Shown: positions 3,948 to 10,609 of the stretch, piece after piece
Layout: each line of letters opens with the position of its first letter
Position numbering within the stretch: position 1 is the first letter of the stretch
Source: Candidatus Bacteroides intestinavium
GTDB lineage: Bacteria > Bacteroidota > Bacteroidia > Bacteroidales > Bacteroidaceae
Assembly: GCA_019118325.1 (NCBI GenBank)
Contig: DWZE01000069.1
Coordinates: 1 to 64,000, forward strand
Length of the DNA stretch: 64,000 nucleotides
Direction of reading: 5' to 3'
Notes under the pieces: model-generated
The model's database searches: none
Seen by the model: only the letters and a program-made list of their open reading frames with translations
Told to the model about the DNA's origin: nothing
Made by a program: the position numbers and the translations under genes

Positions 3948-4054
3948 TTATTTATTGTTGTCTATTTCGGTACGAGGAACTATTTCGCTGAAATCGTGCA
4001 AAGATAGCGTTTCTTCGGGAATATACCGCGAGGTGGGGTTTAAAATCACTATCC

Positions 4055-5026
4055 CTAACAATAATACTTGTCCACAATTTTTTTCAGGTCTTCAATGACT
4101 TTATCGATTGACTCCTGACGTCTCTTTTTTGAATGATTCAGCATTTGCCTAATGACAGCATAGAGACTGGAATTATGCACAATAAAATCGCTCTCTTTCA
4201 CACAACCAATAGGAGCATTCCCTTGCATGATATACCAAAACACTTTTCCTAATTGGAACAGATCGGATTGATGGTCTATATTACAATCAAAGTTCTTACT
4301 ATCCACTTTTTCTGACAGATATTTATTCATAGCCTCAGGAGAAAGCCAGCCTCTTGGTCCCAATAACTCCCCCTCTCTATCTAAACTTTCTTGATTCCTC
4401 ATTTGTATAAGTCCCAAATCTCCAATCTTCCAAATTCCATTCACAACAAATATGTTATCCGGTTTTATGTCTCGGTGATAATAGCCTAAGTCGTTCAATT
4501 CCTTAAGTCCCTGTGCTATTTGCAAACAAAGTTCAACACGCGAAGCCTCATCCACTTCTTCATTTTTTTCTTCAAGGTAACTTTTCAAATCAAACTCGGC
4601 ATATTCCATTATATAGAATGGGAACGAAACATTATACGAATTACTCCCTTCTGTTTTACATTTCAGATTTCCATCAAAACTAATATCTACAACATTTCCT
4701 ACTCTACGCTTTTTACAATTATACAAAGCCTGGACCTCTTGTCTAAACCGGCGATTCTTATCTTTCTGTATAATTCGCCCACCTTTTACAATCTTCTCAG
4801 CATTCTTAGAAATCTTAATAACTTTATCCGGAATAGATTCGTCATCAAACTCTTGGGCAACGAACAAAGCAAAAACATAAGAATTACCACCCTTATTGGC
4901 CTTGATTTGCGGATTCAAATAAGACAGATAATAATCTATACCATCTACAGTCAGATAATTTTTTGTTATCTCATTCGAAATCTCAAGCCCAGCTTTATTA
5001 TATCGGAAATTGCATTCTACATCCAT
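4055..5026 (-). CDS. Eukaryotic-like serine/threonine protein kinase
   Basis: YYHRDIKPDNIFV (HRD loop), KIGDLGLIQ (DFG-equivalent DLG), GWLSPEAMN (APE-equivalent), KVIKISK; starts 7 bp after the DUF262 ORF stop. Confidence 0.85.
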   Translation of the reverse strand: MDVECNFRYNKAGLEISNEITKNYLTVDGIDYYLSYLNPQIKANKGGNSYVFALFVAQEFDDESIPDKVIKISKNAEKIVKGGRIIQKDKNRRFRQEVQALYNCKKRRVGNVVDISFDGNLKCKTEGSNSYNVSFPFYIMEYAEFDLKSYLEEKNEEVDEASRVELCLQIAQGLKELNDLGYYHRDIKPDNIFVVNGIWKIGDLGLIQMRNQESLDREGELLGPRGWLSPEAMNKYLSEKVDSKNFDCNIDHQSDLFQLGKVFWYIMQGNAPIGCVKESDFIVHNSSLYAVIRQMLNHSKKRRQESIDKVIEDLKKIVDKYYC

Positions 5027-5032
5027 AATGCG

Positions 5033-6139
5033 TTAAATGAACTGTTTTGTATCAATAATTCGCCACTTACCCAGATGAATGAAGGAAATTTCCTCTAAAT
5101 CAAACTCCGCTTCTAAGAATTCACACACTTCTGCTAGATGAGGTGCCATTACGCTCTCACCCTCATATGAAATTAATATTTCCTCCAATATATCCAACCT
5201 AACTTGCCGAGCTGTCTTTGAATTCGATTGGGTTACACAATTATAGGCATACATTTTACATGTTTCGCAATCATCATTCGTTGGCCTGATAAACCCTCTC
5301 TCATCCATAAATACCATGAGACGATATTGTGCAATCAAAACATCCTCTGGCAATTCCTTATGCTTTGAGATAAAGCAAAACCATGTATAAAAGTCATTCC
5401 GTTGCTTAAATCTCGTTTCATTGATGGGTTTAATCTTATTAAGCGTCACTAATCTATCAACGACTCTCCTAAATTCGGACTTGACATCTTGAATAGTTTC
5501 ATTATCCAAATCAGTTTCCAGCAGTTCATCCACAGCCTTCCTCTTGTCAGTAACTTTTTTCTTAAATAAATAGGCAACCAATTCTTCTATCAAACTCCGG
5601 TCATTCATACGCTGGACCGTTTTTGTAGAAAATATATCCAACTCCGTGAGTCCCTGCAAATCCATCAATTCATTGACCAAAATCATGAAGGAAGCATCAT
5701 GATATTGAGCTTTATTAACTTCAGCCGCATTCAGATGAACCCCAGGTTTATTTACAAGACTATAGAAATCTTCTAAAGATTCGCCCGCCGCTATATCAAC
5801 ATCATAAATTTCCGTAATACTCAATCTATAAGACATAAAATTTTCTTGATCAATATCATTATAATATCTCTTCTTTGAGTCAGAAAATTCATTCTTGACA
5901 TATTTACAAATAGTTGTAGCACGTTGTTGTCCATCAACCATATCATAGCCATTCTCGGCATTCTTATAGATAAAGAAATTAGGCAATGGATAACCTTTTG
6001 TAATGGAATCTATTAATAACTTTTGGTCTCTTATAGACCAAATAAAGTTTCTCTGATAAGGAGGATGAAGATTCATTCTCCCAGACTTTATCCATTGCAT
6101 TAATTGTGAAATTGAAACTTCTTTAATTGAATAATTCAT
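5033..6139 (-). CDS. DUF262 domain protein (GmrSD/SspE N-terminal-like) with no recognisable C-terminal HNH
   Basis: PYQRNFIWSIRDQKLLIDSITKGYPLPNFFIYKN...YDMVDGQQRATTICKYV (canonical DGQQR motif). Confidence 0.85.
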   Translation of the reverse strand: MNYSIKEVSISQLMQWIKSGRMNLHPPYQRNFIWSIRDQKLLIDSITKGYPLPNFFIYKNAENGYDMVDGQQRATTICKYVKNEFSDSKKRYYNDIDQENFMSYRLSITEIYDVDIAAGESLEDFYSLVNKPGVHLNAAEVNKAQYHDASFMILVNELMDLQGLTELDIFSTKTVQRMNDRSLIEELVAYLFKKKVTDKRKAVDELLETDLDNETIQDVKSEFRRVVDRLVTLNKIKPINETRFKQRNDFYTWFCFISKHKELPEDVLIAQYRLMVFMDERGFIRPTNDDCETCKMYAYNCVTQSNSKTARQVRLDILEEILISYEGESVMAPHLAEVCEFLEAEFDLEEISFIHLGKWRIIDTKQFI

Positions 6140-6160
6140 CGTAAATCAATATTTAAATGA

Positions 6161-7117
6161 TTATCCGCAATAAGGTGTACTTCCGTATAACCGATGATCG
6201 AAAGAGGGTTTAGTACAAACGGCCGCAATCATCAATCTTTCGAACAATCTTTCTCCGAAATATCTTCGATTGAACTTATAACAGAATTCATCAAGATAGA
6301 GTTGTAGGAACTCCCGTTTGATTCCATGGTACATGTCTGTAAGTACGGCTTTTGCATTGGATATGGCAGTGTGCACCCAAGGAAGTACCTTGTGCCCCTC
6401 CTTGGGCTTGACGGCACGGGCTTCCGCCTTGTCCACGACCTCACTTACTTTTACATGCGCCGTGGAAGCATCCATGATGACTTCGATGGATTCCTTTTCA
6501 CAAATGTCATTCACGGCCTCTTTTACGGTGTCCGCTTTAAGGTTGTCTATGACGACCATGCGCAGATGACCGGCCTTGCGGTCTTCCTTCCCTTTCCCGG
6601 GAACGTCAACAGGCTCACTTTCCACCATCACAAGGACTTTCGTCTTGCCTTGGCTGCCGTTACCCCGTTTAAGTGGTTCATCCTCTTCACGCTCGTCCTC
6701 CGTGGTAAAGTGGGCCTCATCCAGCTCTGCCACGCCGCTGAGCTTGTAACGGGAATCCCGTTGTCCCATGACGCTGCGGATTTTGTGCACCATTTCCCAA
6801 ATGGGTTGGTAACGTTTGTGACCCAGTTGGCGTTGTATCTCAAGGACGGAAAAAGTCTTTTTCGTACTGATCAGTAAATGGATGGCGGTGAACCAGTACA
6901 TCAAAGGCAACTTGCTGCTTTGGAACAATGTGCCGGAACGCAAAGTGATGACATGCTTGCAGGAAGCACACAACCAACGCTTGTTGTATTTATCCCAATG
7001 GTGGCGCGTTCCACCGCAATGAGGGCAAACCAACCCTTCCTGTTCACGCAAGGCGCGGAGATACTCCTCGCAAGAGGCCTCATCGGGAAATATACGGTTA
7101 AAATCAAGTAGTTTCAT
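6161..7117 (-). mobile_element. IS1595-family transposase (ISXO2-like, N-terminal zinc ribbon)
   Basis: CPHCGG...CASCKH zinc ribbon, GTLFQSSKLPLMYWFTAIHLL, AELDEAHFTTEDERE (DDE-type), INAVLTDMYHGIKREFLQLYLDEFCYKFNRR-like C-terminus; terminal repeats not resolved. Confidence 0.85.
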
Positions 7118-7206
7118 AAGCTATCTATTTGATTACAAAGGTAATGAGAACTTGCAACTTTAACAAGACTATAACCTTATTTATTCACTCCTTTGCGGAG
7201 AATCAT

Positions 7207-8088
7207 TTAGTATTTTTGTTTGCTTGGTATCACCCCGCGCACCCCTCCCTTAGGATTGGGCACATCCCCCTTATATCGGGGAATGAGATGCATATGCACA
7301 TGAAAGACAGATTGCCCGGCAGCCTCATTCACATTGATGCCCACATTGTATCCATCCGGATGATAGCGTTCATCAATTTTCTGCTTCACATATTGGAGCA
7401 TGACATTCATGGCCTCCCGCTCATGGTTTGTCAGATCGAAATAAGAAGCCACATGACGCTTGGGGATAATCAAAGCATGGCCGGGAGATACCGGATAACC
7501 ATCATAAAAGGCCACACAAGTAGCCGTTTCGCAGATGATTTCCACCCGGCGGGACAAACGGCAGAAAGGACACGTTTCACCTTCTTTACGCGGCAATTTA
7601 TTAAAATGAATGTATTGGTAAAGTTCATAGCTGGGAGTACATTCCAAACTCAAAAAAGGCAAACGAACATTGCACTGATAAGTGTATTGCCGATGGATGG
7701 CATGAAGACGGAAGCCTTCTTCCTTCAAATCACGCCGCACTGCAAAATAAGCCGTGCCACGTGGATGAAGCAAGTTGGTGACATTCATCATTACTTCGGC
7801 TTGAGCATAAGGTTCAAGCACATTCAGCACATAATTGCAGAGGATGGTATCGAATTTCCCTTCCGGATAATCCGGACGATAATAATAGTCATAACCTACG
7901 ATATCATATCCCTGACGTTTCAACTCATCCGTATCAAATCCAAATCCGCAACCAAAATCAAGAATGCGTCCTTTCAGCAAACCATGCTGAAACAAATAAC
8001 GGGTAGGTACGGAGAGCGCCGTCCTCCTGATAGCAGTCAAGTAAGGATGGTTTATTTTTTCGGGTTCCATAAAATTCAAAATTTCCAA
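7207..8088 (-). CDS. Class I SAM methyltransferase / HIT-domain fusion protein
   Basis: N-terminal ILDFGCGFGFDTDELKRQGYDIVGYDYYYRP and TILCNYVLNVLEP; C-terminal CPFCR, GHALIIPKRHV, QSVFHVHMHLIPR (HxHxH HIT triad). Confidence 0.85.
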   Translation of the reverse strand: MEILNFMEPEKINHPYLTAIRRTALSVPTRYLFQHGLLKGRILDFGCGFGFDTDELKRQGYDIVGYDYYYRPDYPEGKFDTILCNYVLNVLEPYAQAEVMMNVTNLLHPRGTAYFAVRRDLKEEGFRLHAIHRQYTYQCNVRLPFLSLECTPSYELYQYIHFNKLPRKEGETCPFCRLSRRVEIICETATCVAFYDGYPVSPGHALIIPKRHVASYFDLTNHEREAMNVMLQYVKQKIDERYHPDGYNVGINVNEAAGQSVFHVHMHLIPRYKGDVPNPKGGVRGVIPSKQKY

Positions 8089-9146
8089 GTAGTAAATCCC
8101 ATATTCAACGCTATCTGATACATCGGCGAGAATGTCCGAAAAAAACAGTCCAACAAATGTTCCCTGTCCATAGTCACTATATCTTGAGGAGTATGCTGGA
8201 GTAGCAAATAGTCTTCCAACAATTTAGACGACTTGCATACCTGCAGATTAATCTTTAGGGAAGATTGATGCATTTCCGCCAACTTAGGAAGGTAACAATC
8301 CAAGTCCGGCAGTTTGTTCCCTTTCGAACTGTTCACACTCGAGTCTACCGGAATCAGATTCCAAAGTAGGTCGTGGGAAACAAAACTCCATGGAATGAAA
8401 TGGTCAAGGTCGTAATGGGAGACTTCCAGCAATCTCCCTGTATAAATGCACCTAACCTCCATACCATGATTGATGGCCGCATTCCAGAACCCCTTCTGCG
8501 CGGCCAATGAATGCCTTTCCTCTTTCTTTACCAATTTGCCGGGAATATTGGGTACATTCGGATTCCGCAATTGCAAGAAATTCGCCAACCCCCAATAAGC
8601 AAAGGAGGTAAGTATCTCGTAATTCTCCCGGAGATAAGGCAACCATATAGGATTCAGTTCAACCCACAACGAACCGTTCTTTTTCTCCAGTTTATACAGA
8701 CAACCATTCTCCAATGTCTGTGAACGGATCAGCATTTCCCTATCATCCGAAGTGTTTATCCAAGGACGCAAGAAGCGGAAAGGAACGTTTATCTGTAGAA
8801 AATTCAACTGCTTTCGGATATCTCTACGGCTCACCAATTGATATAACAAATCTGTCAAGTCCTTCACACCAATGTTTATCGGAATATTATTCTCTTTCTG
8901 TAAGGTCAAGATAGCCTCGTAGAGTGATTCGGACTTACCAAAAGACAGGCGGAAGTAATTCACTGGATACCATGCGTTGGCAACCATTGTTATCATAATA
9001 TCCCATACATTCAGCCTGGTTTTTCCTTGTTTCACATACAAATCTAGGATGCCTAGAAACCAATAGTATTTGTAGGTAGCCACTGTCTTATCAAATACCC
9101 TATTCAGATATTTTGTAGTCAAAGTTTGTGATTGAGGTATATTCAT
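8076..9146 (-). CDS. HNH endonuclease domain protein
   Basis: CIYTGRLLEVSHYDLDHFIPWSFVSHDLLWNLIPVDSSVNSSKGNKLP (HNH/beta-beta-alpha-metal motif); overlaps the downstream MT-HIT start by 13 nt. Confidence 0.8.
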   Translation of the reverse strand: MNIPQSQTLTTKYLNRVFDKTVATYKYYWFLGILDLYVKQGKTRLNVWDIMITMVANAWYPVNYFRLSFGKSESLYEAILTLQKENNIPINIGVKDLTDLLYQLVSRRDIRKQLNFLQINVPFRFLRPWINTSDDREMLIRSQTLENGCLYKLEKKNGSLWVELNPIWLPYLRENYEILTSFAYWGLANFLQLRNPNVPNIPGKLVKKEERHSLAAQKGFWNAAINHGMEVRCIYTGRLLEVSHYDLDHFIPWSFVSHDLLWNLIPVDSSVNSSKGNKLPDLDCYLPKLAEMHQSSLKINLQVCKSSKLLEDYLLLQHTPQDIVTMDREHLLDCFFRTFSPMYQIALNMGFTTWKF

Positions 9147-9483
9147 TTCAATAGTTTATTAAACCTCCAATTAACCAAAAAGTTGCTCAAGTCCGCCCGA
9201 TTCACTCTATGAAGCATTTCCTACATCTTCTTCAATAGGGATGAATAGAAACGAACTTGACCCATATATTACGATAATAAACACCACGTTACTTAAATCC
9301 GCGGTAAAGATAATCAAATGGCGCGAGAAATTTATACTAGAAGTGCTACTTTCATACTTGATTAATTCTCGAAAAGATTAATTTCCTCTGGTTGACACGT
9401 CCCTCATGCACGGCCTGCACAGCACCGGACATCGTGCAGCCTCAGACTGAAATCGGTGTCAGACTTCATAATAATTATTATAA

Positions 9484-9664
9484 ACCCGTTGGCGGAATTA
9501 ATTGGGGCATGAAACCCACGGGCGGAGATATCTTCGGGCCAAGACAGAGATATCTGCGGGCACGGACGGAGATATCTGCGGACAAAAGCGGAGATATCCG
9601 CCCGCAAAGCCGCACGATGGACCGACAGATAAAGTGCATATTGGTTATAATTCCGCCAACGGGT
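9484..9664. repeat. MITE-like intergenic element: 16-bp perfect terminal inverted repeats enclosing a 4x22-bp GATATC array
   Basis: acccgttggcggaatt (9484-9499) and aattccgccaacgggt (9649-9664); GATATC cores at 9527, 9549, 9571, 9593. Confidence 0.8.
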
Positions 9665-10082
9665 ATTATAAATATCCGCAGATTGCCTAACCAGAGAAAT
9701 GAAAAGCCTATATAAGCAAGCTCCTACGGCTAAGTATTATTGGATATTTGGCCATTTATCATTGCTTCTATGCTGGTTGAAGCATAGCATACTTGCAAAA
9801 GTATCATTGGGGAGAATGCGGACATTCATTCTAAGCATGACGGTCTGAAAACCGGTGAAACATCATTCGGGGCGTGAAGCACCCTGGCAAGACCCCACGA
9901 TGAAGAAAGAAAGGTACCGCAAAGGATACGGCGGCTACCGCATCGCCCGCCACGCCCGGTCCCTCTATATATAAATAGGTGTAGTTTCTATTAAACCAGG
10001 AAGGAGGGAAAAACACCGGTTCATGCGCACCGCAACAAGAAAGCGGGTACAAACTGTAAACAAATTATACTTCCAATTTGTC

Positions 10083-10181
10083 TCTCAACATTTCCCGTAG
10101 AAACTCTGAACAATTTCTTCGAAAACACTGAAGTATTTCTGCCGAAATACTGAACAGTTTTGGGAGAAATACTTCAGTGTT
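10083..10181. repeat. 22-bp-period array, ACTGAA-type core, with an overlapping 17-bp inverted repeat
   Basis: Cores tctcaa 10083, tctgaa 10105, actgaa 10127, actgaa 10149, acttca 10171; aacactgaagtatttct (10124-10140) / agaaatacttcagtgtt (10165-10181). Confidence 0.65.
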
Positions 10182-10315
10182 ATTTTAAGCCTGTGGAATA
10201 ATTTTTAAAGCATTGTATTCCAACCGCTTGCATTAAGAAGGATATTTACAAAAATAATTTTCGTAATGATTTATTAAACCGGAGGCGTTGAGAATTTTCA
10301 GTGTCTGCCATAAGG

Positions 10316-10609
10316 TCATCCCACACCGACCGGAATCAACAAATCCTCTTCCGGCCAGCGGGGCAAATAGAACAGCGGCAAGGGCCGACCCCCTACCCCG
10401 CTCCACTCCACGCGGCACAGGTGATAGAAGTCCGGCGCCCCGAAGTCGAACGAACGTCCATAAAGCAGTATGGCTCCACGACCCTCGTCAATCTTCCACA
10501 AACCGCCTCCGTAGGGACATTCCTCGCCCTGCGACAAGAGGTCTCTATGCAAATAGACGCGGCCGAACTTCAACACCCCGTCTTGATTGATAATGAACTT
10601 CTGATACAT
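10316..10609 (-). CDS. Small hypothetical protein
   Basis: 97 aa ORF directly upstream of the yjbQ-type gene, same strand; overlapping ORFs in other frames reduce certainty. Confidence 0.5.
   Translation of the reverse strand: MYQKFIINQDGVLKFGRVYLHRDLLSQGEECPYGGGLWKIDEGRGAILLYGRSFDFGAPDFYHLCRVEWSGVGGRPLPLFYLPRWPEEDLLIPVGVG

Follow-up and report, generated by a model that had tools for sequence, protein, structure and literature searches.

A nuclease-less DUF262 gene and a Ser/Thr kinase gene form a recurrent pair linked to Ssp phosphorothioate loci

RESULTS

A two-gene unit encodes a DUF262 protein and a Ser/Thr kinase

We analyzed a window of 64,000 nucleotides from Candidatus Bacteroides intestinavium (contig DWZE01000069.1), in which two adjacent genes lie on the minus strand.

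4055..5026, minus strand: Ser/Thr protein kinase, 323 amino acids; K71, E97, D186 of HRD, K188, N191, D203 of DLG, E231 of SPE
5027..5032, minus strand: intergenic gap between the DUF262 and kinase genes, 6 bp; translational coupling likely
5033..6139, minus strand: DUF262 (GmrSD_N/ParB-like) protein, 368 amino acids; candidate sensor/NTPase; P26-P27-Y28-Q29, DGQQR at 69 to 73

Open reading frames and Pfam matches (PF03235 GmrSD_N, E = 1.2e-19, for 5033-6139; PF00069 Pkinase, E = 3.5e-19, for 4055-5026) confirm the two-gene unit proposed in an initial annotation of this DNA, and both genes are intact. That annotation correctly placed them a few base pairs apart, but the distance from the DUF262 stop to the kinase start is 6 bp rather than the 7 bp it gave. 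Translational coupling, which it also proposed, is likely in view of this gap and of the overlap of 1 to 35 bp between the homologous genes in five other loci where both are intact and adjacent.

The motif PYQRNFIW occupies residues 27 to 34 of the DUF262 protein and DGQQR residues 69 to 73; both had been noted initially, as had the lack of an HNH- or DUF1524-like motif at the C terminus. Neither Pfam, NCBIfam, nor PADLOC detects HNH or DUF1524 in this protein. In an AlphaFold2 model built with 31 sequences (pLDDT 82.7), a ParB-like domain is followed by an all-helical C terminus with no strand of at least 3 residues past residue 112, and the model therefore contains neither an HNH (beta-beta-alpha) nor a PD-(D/E)xK core. 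Foldseek comparison with the PDB returned BrxU (7p9k) first, at a probability of 1.00, followed by ParB-like proteins, sulfiredoxin, and SspE (6jiv, 0.69); because these scores are modest (best E value, 1.3e-3; TM-scores of at most 0.30 over the query), the fold assignment leans equally on Pfam and Foldseek. Profiles, model, and PDB matches agree on a protein predicted to be without a nuclease fold, so that the C terminus does not contradict the initial reading, which a nuclease there would have refuted. For a possible degenerate HNH at the C terminus of the alphaproteobacterial and cyanobacterial relatives, hhalign gave a probability of 9%.

SspE reads the phosphorothioate (PT) mark through a pocket formed by P61/Y63/Q64, and GTP hydrolysis via the Arg of its DGQQR motif licenses its HNH nuclease (PMC13251355). 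The window protein has counterparts of these pocket residues and of the GTPase Arg (P26/Y28/Q29 and R73). The P-x-Y-Q-R motif is common to DUF262 proteins generally and is therefore not diagnostic for PT binding; Phe replaces the Tyr of P-x-Y-Q in the alphaproteobacterial and cyanobacterial paired members and in the Bacteroidota genome G1069.

The kinase carries the HRD (184 to 186), DLG (203 to 205), and SPE (229 to 231) motifs recognized initially, with K71 (in VIKI) as the candidate beta3 Lys and E97 as the alphaC Glu, so that the Hanks-type Ser/Thr kinase set is complete (K71, E97, D186, D203, and E231). PknB is the top fold match of its structure model (pLDDT 82.8), and other kinases match as well. 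The catalytic residues are kept in all eight paired kinases in an alignment; conservation of the beta3 Lys, whose column is unaligned, was judged by eye from the sequences. By its residues, the window kinase is predicted to be catalytically complete. PADLOC scores it at 82 bits against mad6 and 77 bits against PD-T4-6. We rejected an assignment as MADS mad6: the resemblance is one of kinase domains, the NCBIfam MAD6 score is 31 bits against a cut-off of 460 bits, and no mad operon lies nearby.

Seven further loci carry the pair, all with Ssp genes

Other pairs were located by similarity to the DUF262 and kinase proteins and by subsequent inspection of the neighboring genes; Ssp genes were not a search criterion. 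Conservation of the pair beyond this genome, on which the initial reading depended, is borne out by seven further loci from three phyla (Bacteroidota, Alphaproteobacteria, and Cyanobacteria). Exact-peptide scans of genome and viral contigs for close relatives returned one partial match and none that was useful. The gene orders are as follows.

G113 (window organism's family; pair 51% and 44% identical): C-terminal part of SspD, DUF262, kinase, PbeA (1114 bits), SMC-like ATPase, DndB, AbiH
G1069 and G875 (window organism's phylum): SspB, SspC, SspD, DUF262, and kinase, co-directional; a GHKL ATPase gene, convergent
Asticcacaulis excentricus pASTEX02 and Asticcacaulis DW145: DUF262-kinase, convergent with IscS-DUF4007(SspB)-SspC-SspD
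Sphingopyxis: two genes and SspH, DUF262, about 38 kb of transposon cargo, kinase, SspD, SspC, SspB, IscS
Pseudanabaena: genes ending in an FtsK/SspH-like protein, DUF262, kinase, cysteine desulfurase; DUF4007 and a 3.5-kb gene close by

Genes of the Ssp PT system accompany all seven pairs, which lie directly behind SspD, convergent with SspD, or beside SspFGH. Three of the loci have the DUF262 gene immediately after SspD, on the same strand and no more than about 20 bp away. PADLOC identifies SspC (1115 and 1270 bits) and SspD (296 and 310 bits) in G1069 and G875, respectively, and SspB (302 bits) in G1069; DUF4007 is found in both. The Sphingopyxis pair sat between SspFGH and SspD and was later split by transposons, and the Pseudanabaena SspD-like gene is in two pieces, about 10 kb from the pair. 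In G875, a frameshift breaks the DUF262 gene (L097:7516-8612); the reading frames of the kinase gene and of SspBCD are open.

These arrangements establish a genetic linkage of the pair to Ssp genes, and counts across collections agree. SspB (DUF4007) occurs in 25 of 396 genomes of the phylum, and both pair-bearing genomes are among those 25 (chance, about 0.004). An SspD-like gene occurs in 69 of 72,556 plasmids; all five pair-bearing records, two of which are near-identical Sphingopyxis records, belong to those 69. Sensor and kinase distances over the seven pairs correlate at r = 0.976, a value matched by 1 of 5,040 permutations and largely driven by two deep clades; such covariation is expected under co-inheritance.

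The pair is present in only 2 of 22 Bacteroidota SspB loci examined, the others having PbeA-like, SspFGH-like, GHKL ATPase, or SspE-like genes, and it is thus one, and a rare one, of several exchangeable Ssp-locus modules. On the two Asticcacaulis plasmids, it is the only restriction-like candidate seen; no SspFGH was seen within about 8 to 15 kb of either pair, which makes the pair the best effector candidate there. FtsK/SspFGH-like genes fill the convergent slot on plasmids whose SspD is about 81 to 82% identical. Further restriction-like genes accompany the pair in three loci (PbeA in G113; SspFGH-like genes in Sphingopyxis and Pseudanabaena), and G1069 and G875 each have a GHKL ATPase gene; in those five, the effector could therefore be something other than the pair. 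A GHKL/HSP90-like ATPase gene of about 810 codons accompanies several Bacteroidota SspBCD loci, with or without the kinase pair (e.g., L096:2223-4676, L097:4175-6598, L247, L251, and L252); these examples have no PADLOC match.

The window copy lies on an acquired island, apart from modification genes

The surroundings of the window copy had escaped the initial annotation, which missed the PT link, the island with its insertion sequence, and the separation from modification genes.

4049..10328, no strand assigned: acquired island with the pair, an insertion sequence, and methyltransferase-HIT (MTase-HIT) and HNH genes; left boundary 6 bp beyond the kinase stop codon
6154..7209, minus strand: IS1595-family element; transposase at 6161-7117 (NCBIfam transpos_IS1595, 8e-55)

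A near relative, G1092 (MetG 97% identical), has about 51 bp between the matching flanks in place of the island at about 4049-10328, and the GC content of the pair is 35.1%, compared with 57.6 ± 2.6% for the remainder of the window. The IS1595 element has 17-bp terminal inverted repeats (6154-6170 and 7193-7209), and matches in other genomes start or stop at about 6152 and 7208; no clear target duplication was found at the element. One end sits 14 bp upstream of the DUF262 ATG, so that IS1595 occupies the position that SspD has in Bacteroidota relatives. SspB, SspC, and SspD were not found in the window's genome assembly, which is 81.9% complete. The window pair is accordingly an orphan or mobile copy, separated from modification genes; it may act in trans or by itself, or it may be inactive.

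One possibility is that the window copy is a decaying, unexpressed remnant cut from an Ssp operon by an IS1595-linked event. This would concern the window copy only and is compatible with any reading of the pair as a whole. The place of the IS1595 end, where relatives have SspD, and the frameshift in G875 are consistent with it; both window reading frames are full length and keep all conserved motifs, however, and we regard decay as rather unlikely.

The neighbors of the pair in the window are IS1595, MTase-HIT, HNH, and metG. The HNH_4 (Cas9-type HNH) gene and the methyltransferase-HIT fusion gene at 7207-9146 form a separate conserved two-gene module and were rejected as operon partners of the pair: MTase-HIT occurs in eleven other genomes, nearly always with HNH and with different sequence after it. 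MTase-HIT is 84 to 90% identical in those genomes, and the adjacent HNH protein merely 49 to 77%. In the window, the IS1595 end supplies the MTase-HIT stop codon, and the gene may thus have lost part of its 3' end. The methyltransferase scores 63 bits against TIGR04096, the PT-associated methyltransferase family, far under the cut-off of 150, and is not evidence of a PT system. Elsewhere in the window's genome, a PAPS-reductase-family (IbrA-like) gene is followed by a ParB-like gene (G000:C115, L099:1426-3284), a locus that is neither Ssp nor Dnd.

Related nuclease-less DUF262 genes have other partners

Relatives of the DUF262 gene that also lack a nuclease pair with HEPN-like, SIR2, or nucleotidyltransferase-like partners. 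In DUF262-HEPN units, the DUF262 gene is directly followed by a gene for an R-x4-H protein of about 207 amino acids, with weak HEPN_RiboL-PSP matches in some (L063, L064, L065, L067, L092, L102, L107, L109, L111, L115, L130, L145, and L160); many of these units sit on viral-collection contigs. In other loci (L004, L069, L093, L100, L104, L105, L119, and L129), a Pfam-negative gene of about 200 codons, nucleotidyltransferase-like of the polymerase-beta type by its GS...DxD motif alone, lies directly upstream. On a Sinorhizobium americanum plasmid (L236:22145-24047), DUF262 and then SIR2 stand beside an SspABCD locus with FtsK/SspFGH-like genes, making SIR2 a candidate second alternative output in a PT locus. 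HEPN-like and SIR2 families are typical effectors. Together, these partners suggest one DUF262 sensor with swappable outputs. No PT context was seen for kinase-less relatives in the stretches viewed (G120, G312, G329, G757, Rhizobium, Sulfurovum, Glutamicibacter, and Pseudoalteromonas), and PT linkage is therefore not general to DUF262.

DISCUSSION

A candidate effector module of Ssp-type PT defense

Both sspE and sspFGH are absent from 2,211 of 2,678 sspBCD loci (given as about 84%), and further, undiscovered restriction counterparts of sspBCD have been suggested (PMC8092258). The pair described here is a concrete candidate for such a counterpart in loci without SspE and SspFGH, with a different chemistry, protein phosphorylation. 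We consider it somewhat probable that the pair serves as an effector module in PT defense of the Ssp type, as a split analogue of SspE with the DUF262 protein as NTPase sensor and the kinase as the effector under its control. The DUF262 protein, related to the N-terminal domain of SspE/GmrSD but lacking a nuclease, would be a ParB-fold NTPase that reads a DNA state, either PT present or PT missing on phage DNA. Its NTPase cycle would activate the co-translated Ser/Thr kinase by contact between the two proteins, and the kinase would phosphorylate host or phage proteins and so stop infection, a job that SspE does via its fused HNH nickase. The initial annotation had offered phosphorylation as the output in place of DNA cleavage. 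This is partly supported: it fits the context, because the pair occupies the usual place of the SspFGH/PbeA restriction module in PT loci, while the choice of effector over regulator is one that we infer.

As a regulator, the kinase would phosphorylate DUF262, SspBCD, SspFGH, or PbeA and thereby restrain restriction, or would guard the PT system against phage kinases. The pair does adjoin other restriction genes in G113, Sphingopyxis, and Pseudanabaena; PMC11662687 and PMC12904381 refer to phage kinases that inactivate DndFGH by phosphorylating it; and DndF may carry fused S/T/Y kinase domains, which have been proposed as co-effectors (PMC10853773). We nevertheless think regulation unlikely, since no other restriction gene was seen near the pair in the two Asticcacaulis loci and related DUF262 genes pair in the same way with HEPN-like and SIR2 proteins. 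On another reading, the two genes would act independently of PT, in the manner of an abortive-infection or toxin-antitoxin unit, and would only be carried along with PT loci, the copy in the window working by itself. This would account for two intact reading frames on a small acquired island in an assembly without SspBCD, and PADLOC counts single kinases, PD-T4-6 for example, among defense genes, but with all seven other pairs in Ssp loci, and DUF262 directly downstream of SspD in three, it is improbable.

If the pair does have this effector role in PT defense, a kinase pathway would take its input from the modification status of DNA, a form of output undescribed for Ssp systems in the openly licensed papers searched, and a kinase in place of a DNA-cutting enzyme would be a new way for sulfur-marking defenses to act. 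Neither the DUF262-kinase pair nor sspBCD together with "protein kinase" was found in that literature, where DndF fusions were the only protein kinases seen described for PT loci. More tentatively, a ParB-fold NTPase could read a DNA-backbone mark and thereby control a eukaryotic-like kinase, which would amount to PT defense by protein phosphorylation instead of DNA cleavage, with the same nuclease-less sensor serving as a plug-in for kinase, HEPN-like, SIR2, or nucleotidyltransferase outputs; this could explain why SspE and SspFGH are both missing from some sspBCD loci.

Comparison with known systems

One of the closest known systems is the PT-sensing defense SspABCD-SspE. SspE (DUF262 plus DUF1524) shares with the window protein the DUF262 domain of predicted NTPase type, its DGQQR, and a P-x-Y-Q motif like that of the SspE pocket, and relatives of the window pair are likewise encoded with SspBCD, although the window copy is without them; SspE has a fused DUF1524/HNH nickase, whereas the window DUF262 protein has a separate Ser/Thr kinase gene instead. 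In IscS-DndBCDE-DndI, DndI (DUF262 plus HNH) is a DUF262 self/non-self reader beside PT genes (PMC11662687) with its own nickase, while the pair has no nuclease and the modification module of its relatives is Ssp, not Dnd. The type IV restriction enzymes GmrSD and BrxU are DUF262 plus DUF1524/HNH endonucleases, unlike the window protein, which is without DUF1524.

Closer to the window protein in this respect are Menshen (NsnA), Dazbog, and PD-T4-2, which have DUF262 without fused DUF1524 (PMC10952713). NsnA is the best PADLOC match of the window DUF262 protein (90 bits); Menshen couples DUF262 with a predicted OLD nuclease, and no kinase or PT link is described for it there (PMC10952713). The NsnA-like match stands alone in the window, Menshen partner genes, including the OLD-type nuclease, being absent among the neighbors. 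Ser/Thr kinases also occur in other DNA-modification or antiphage loci, as DndF with a fused S/T/Y kinase, PglW of BREX type 2, MADS mad6, and PD-T4-6; these are fused or stand-alone, have other partners, and none is a DUF262-kinase gene pair. The two-gene layout itself, a nuclease-less DUF262 gene with a separate effector-like gene after it, is found in DUF262/ParB-HEPN pairs (RiboL-PSP-HEPN and MAE_28990, "in operon with ParB"; PMC3710099), in which an RNase-like partner takes the place that the kinase has in the window pair.
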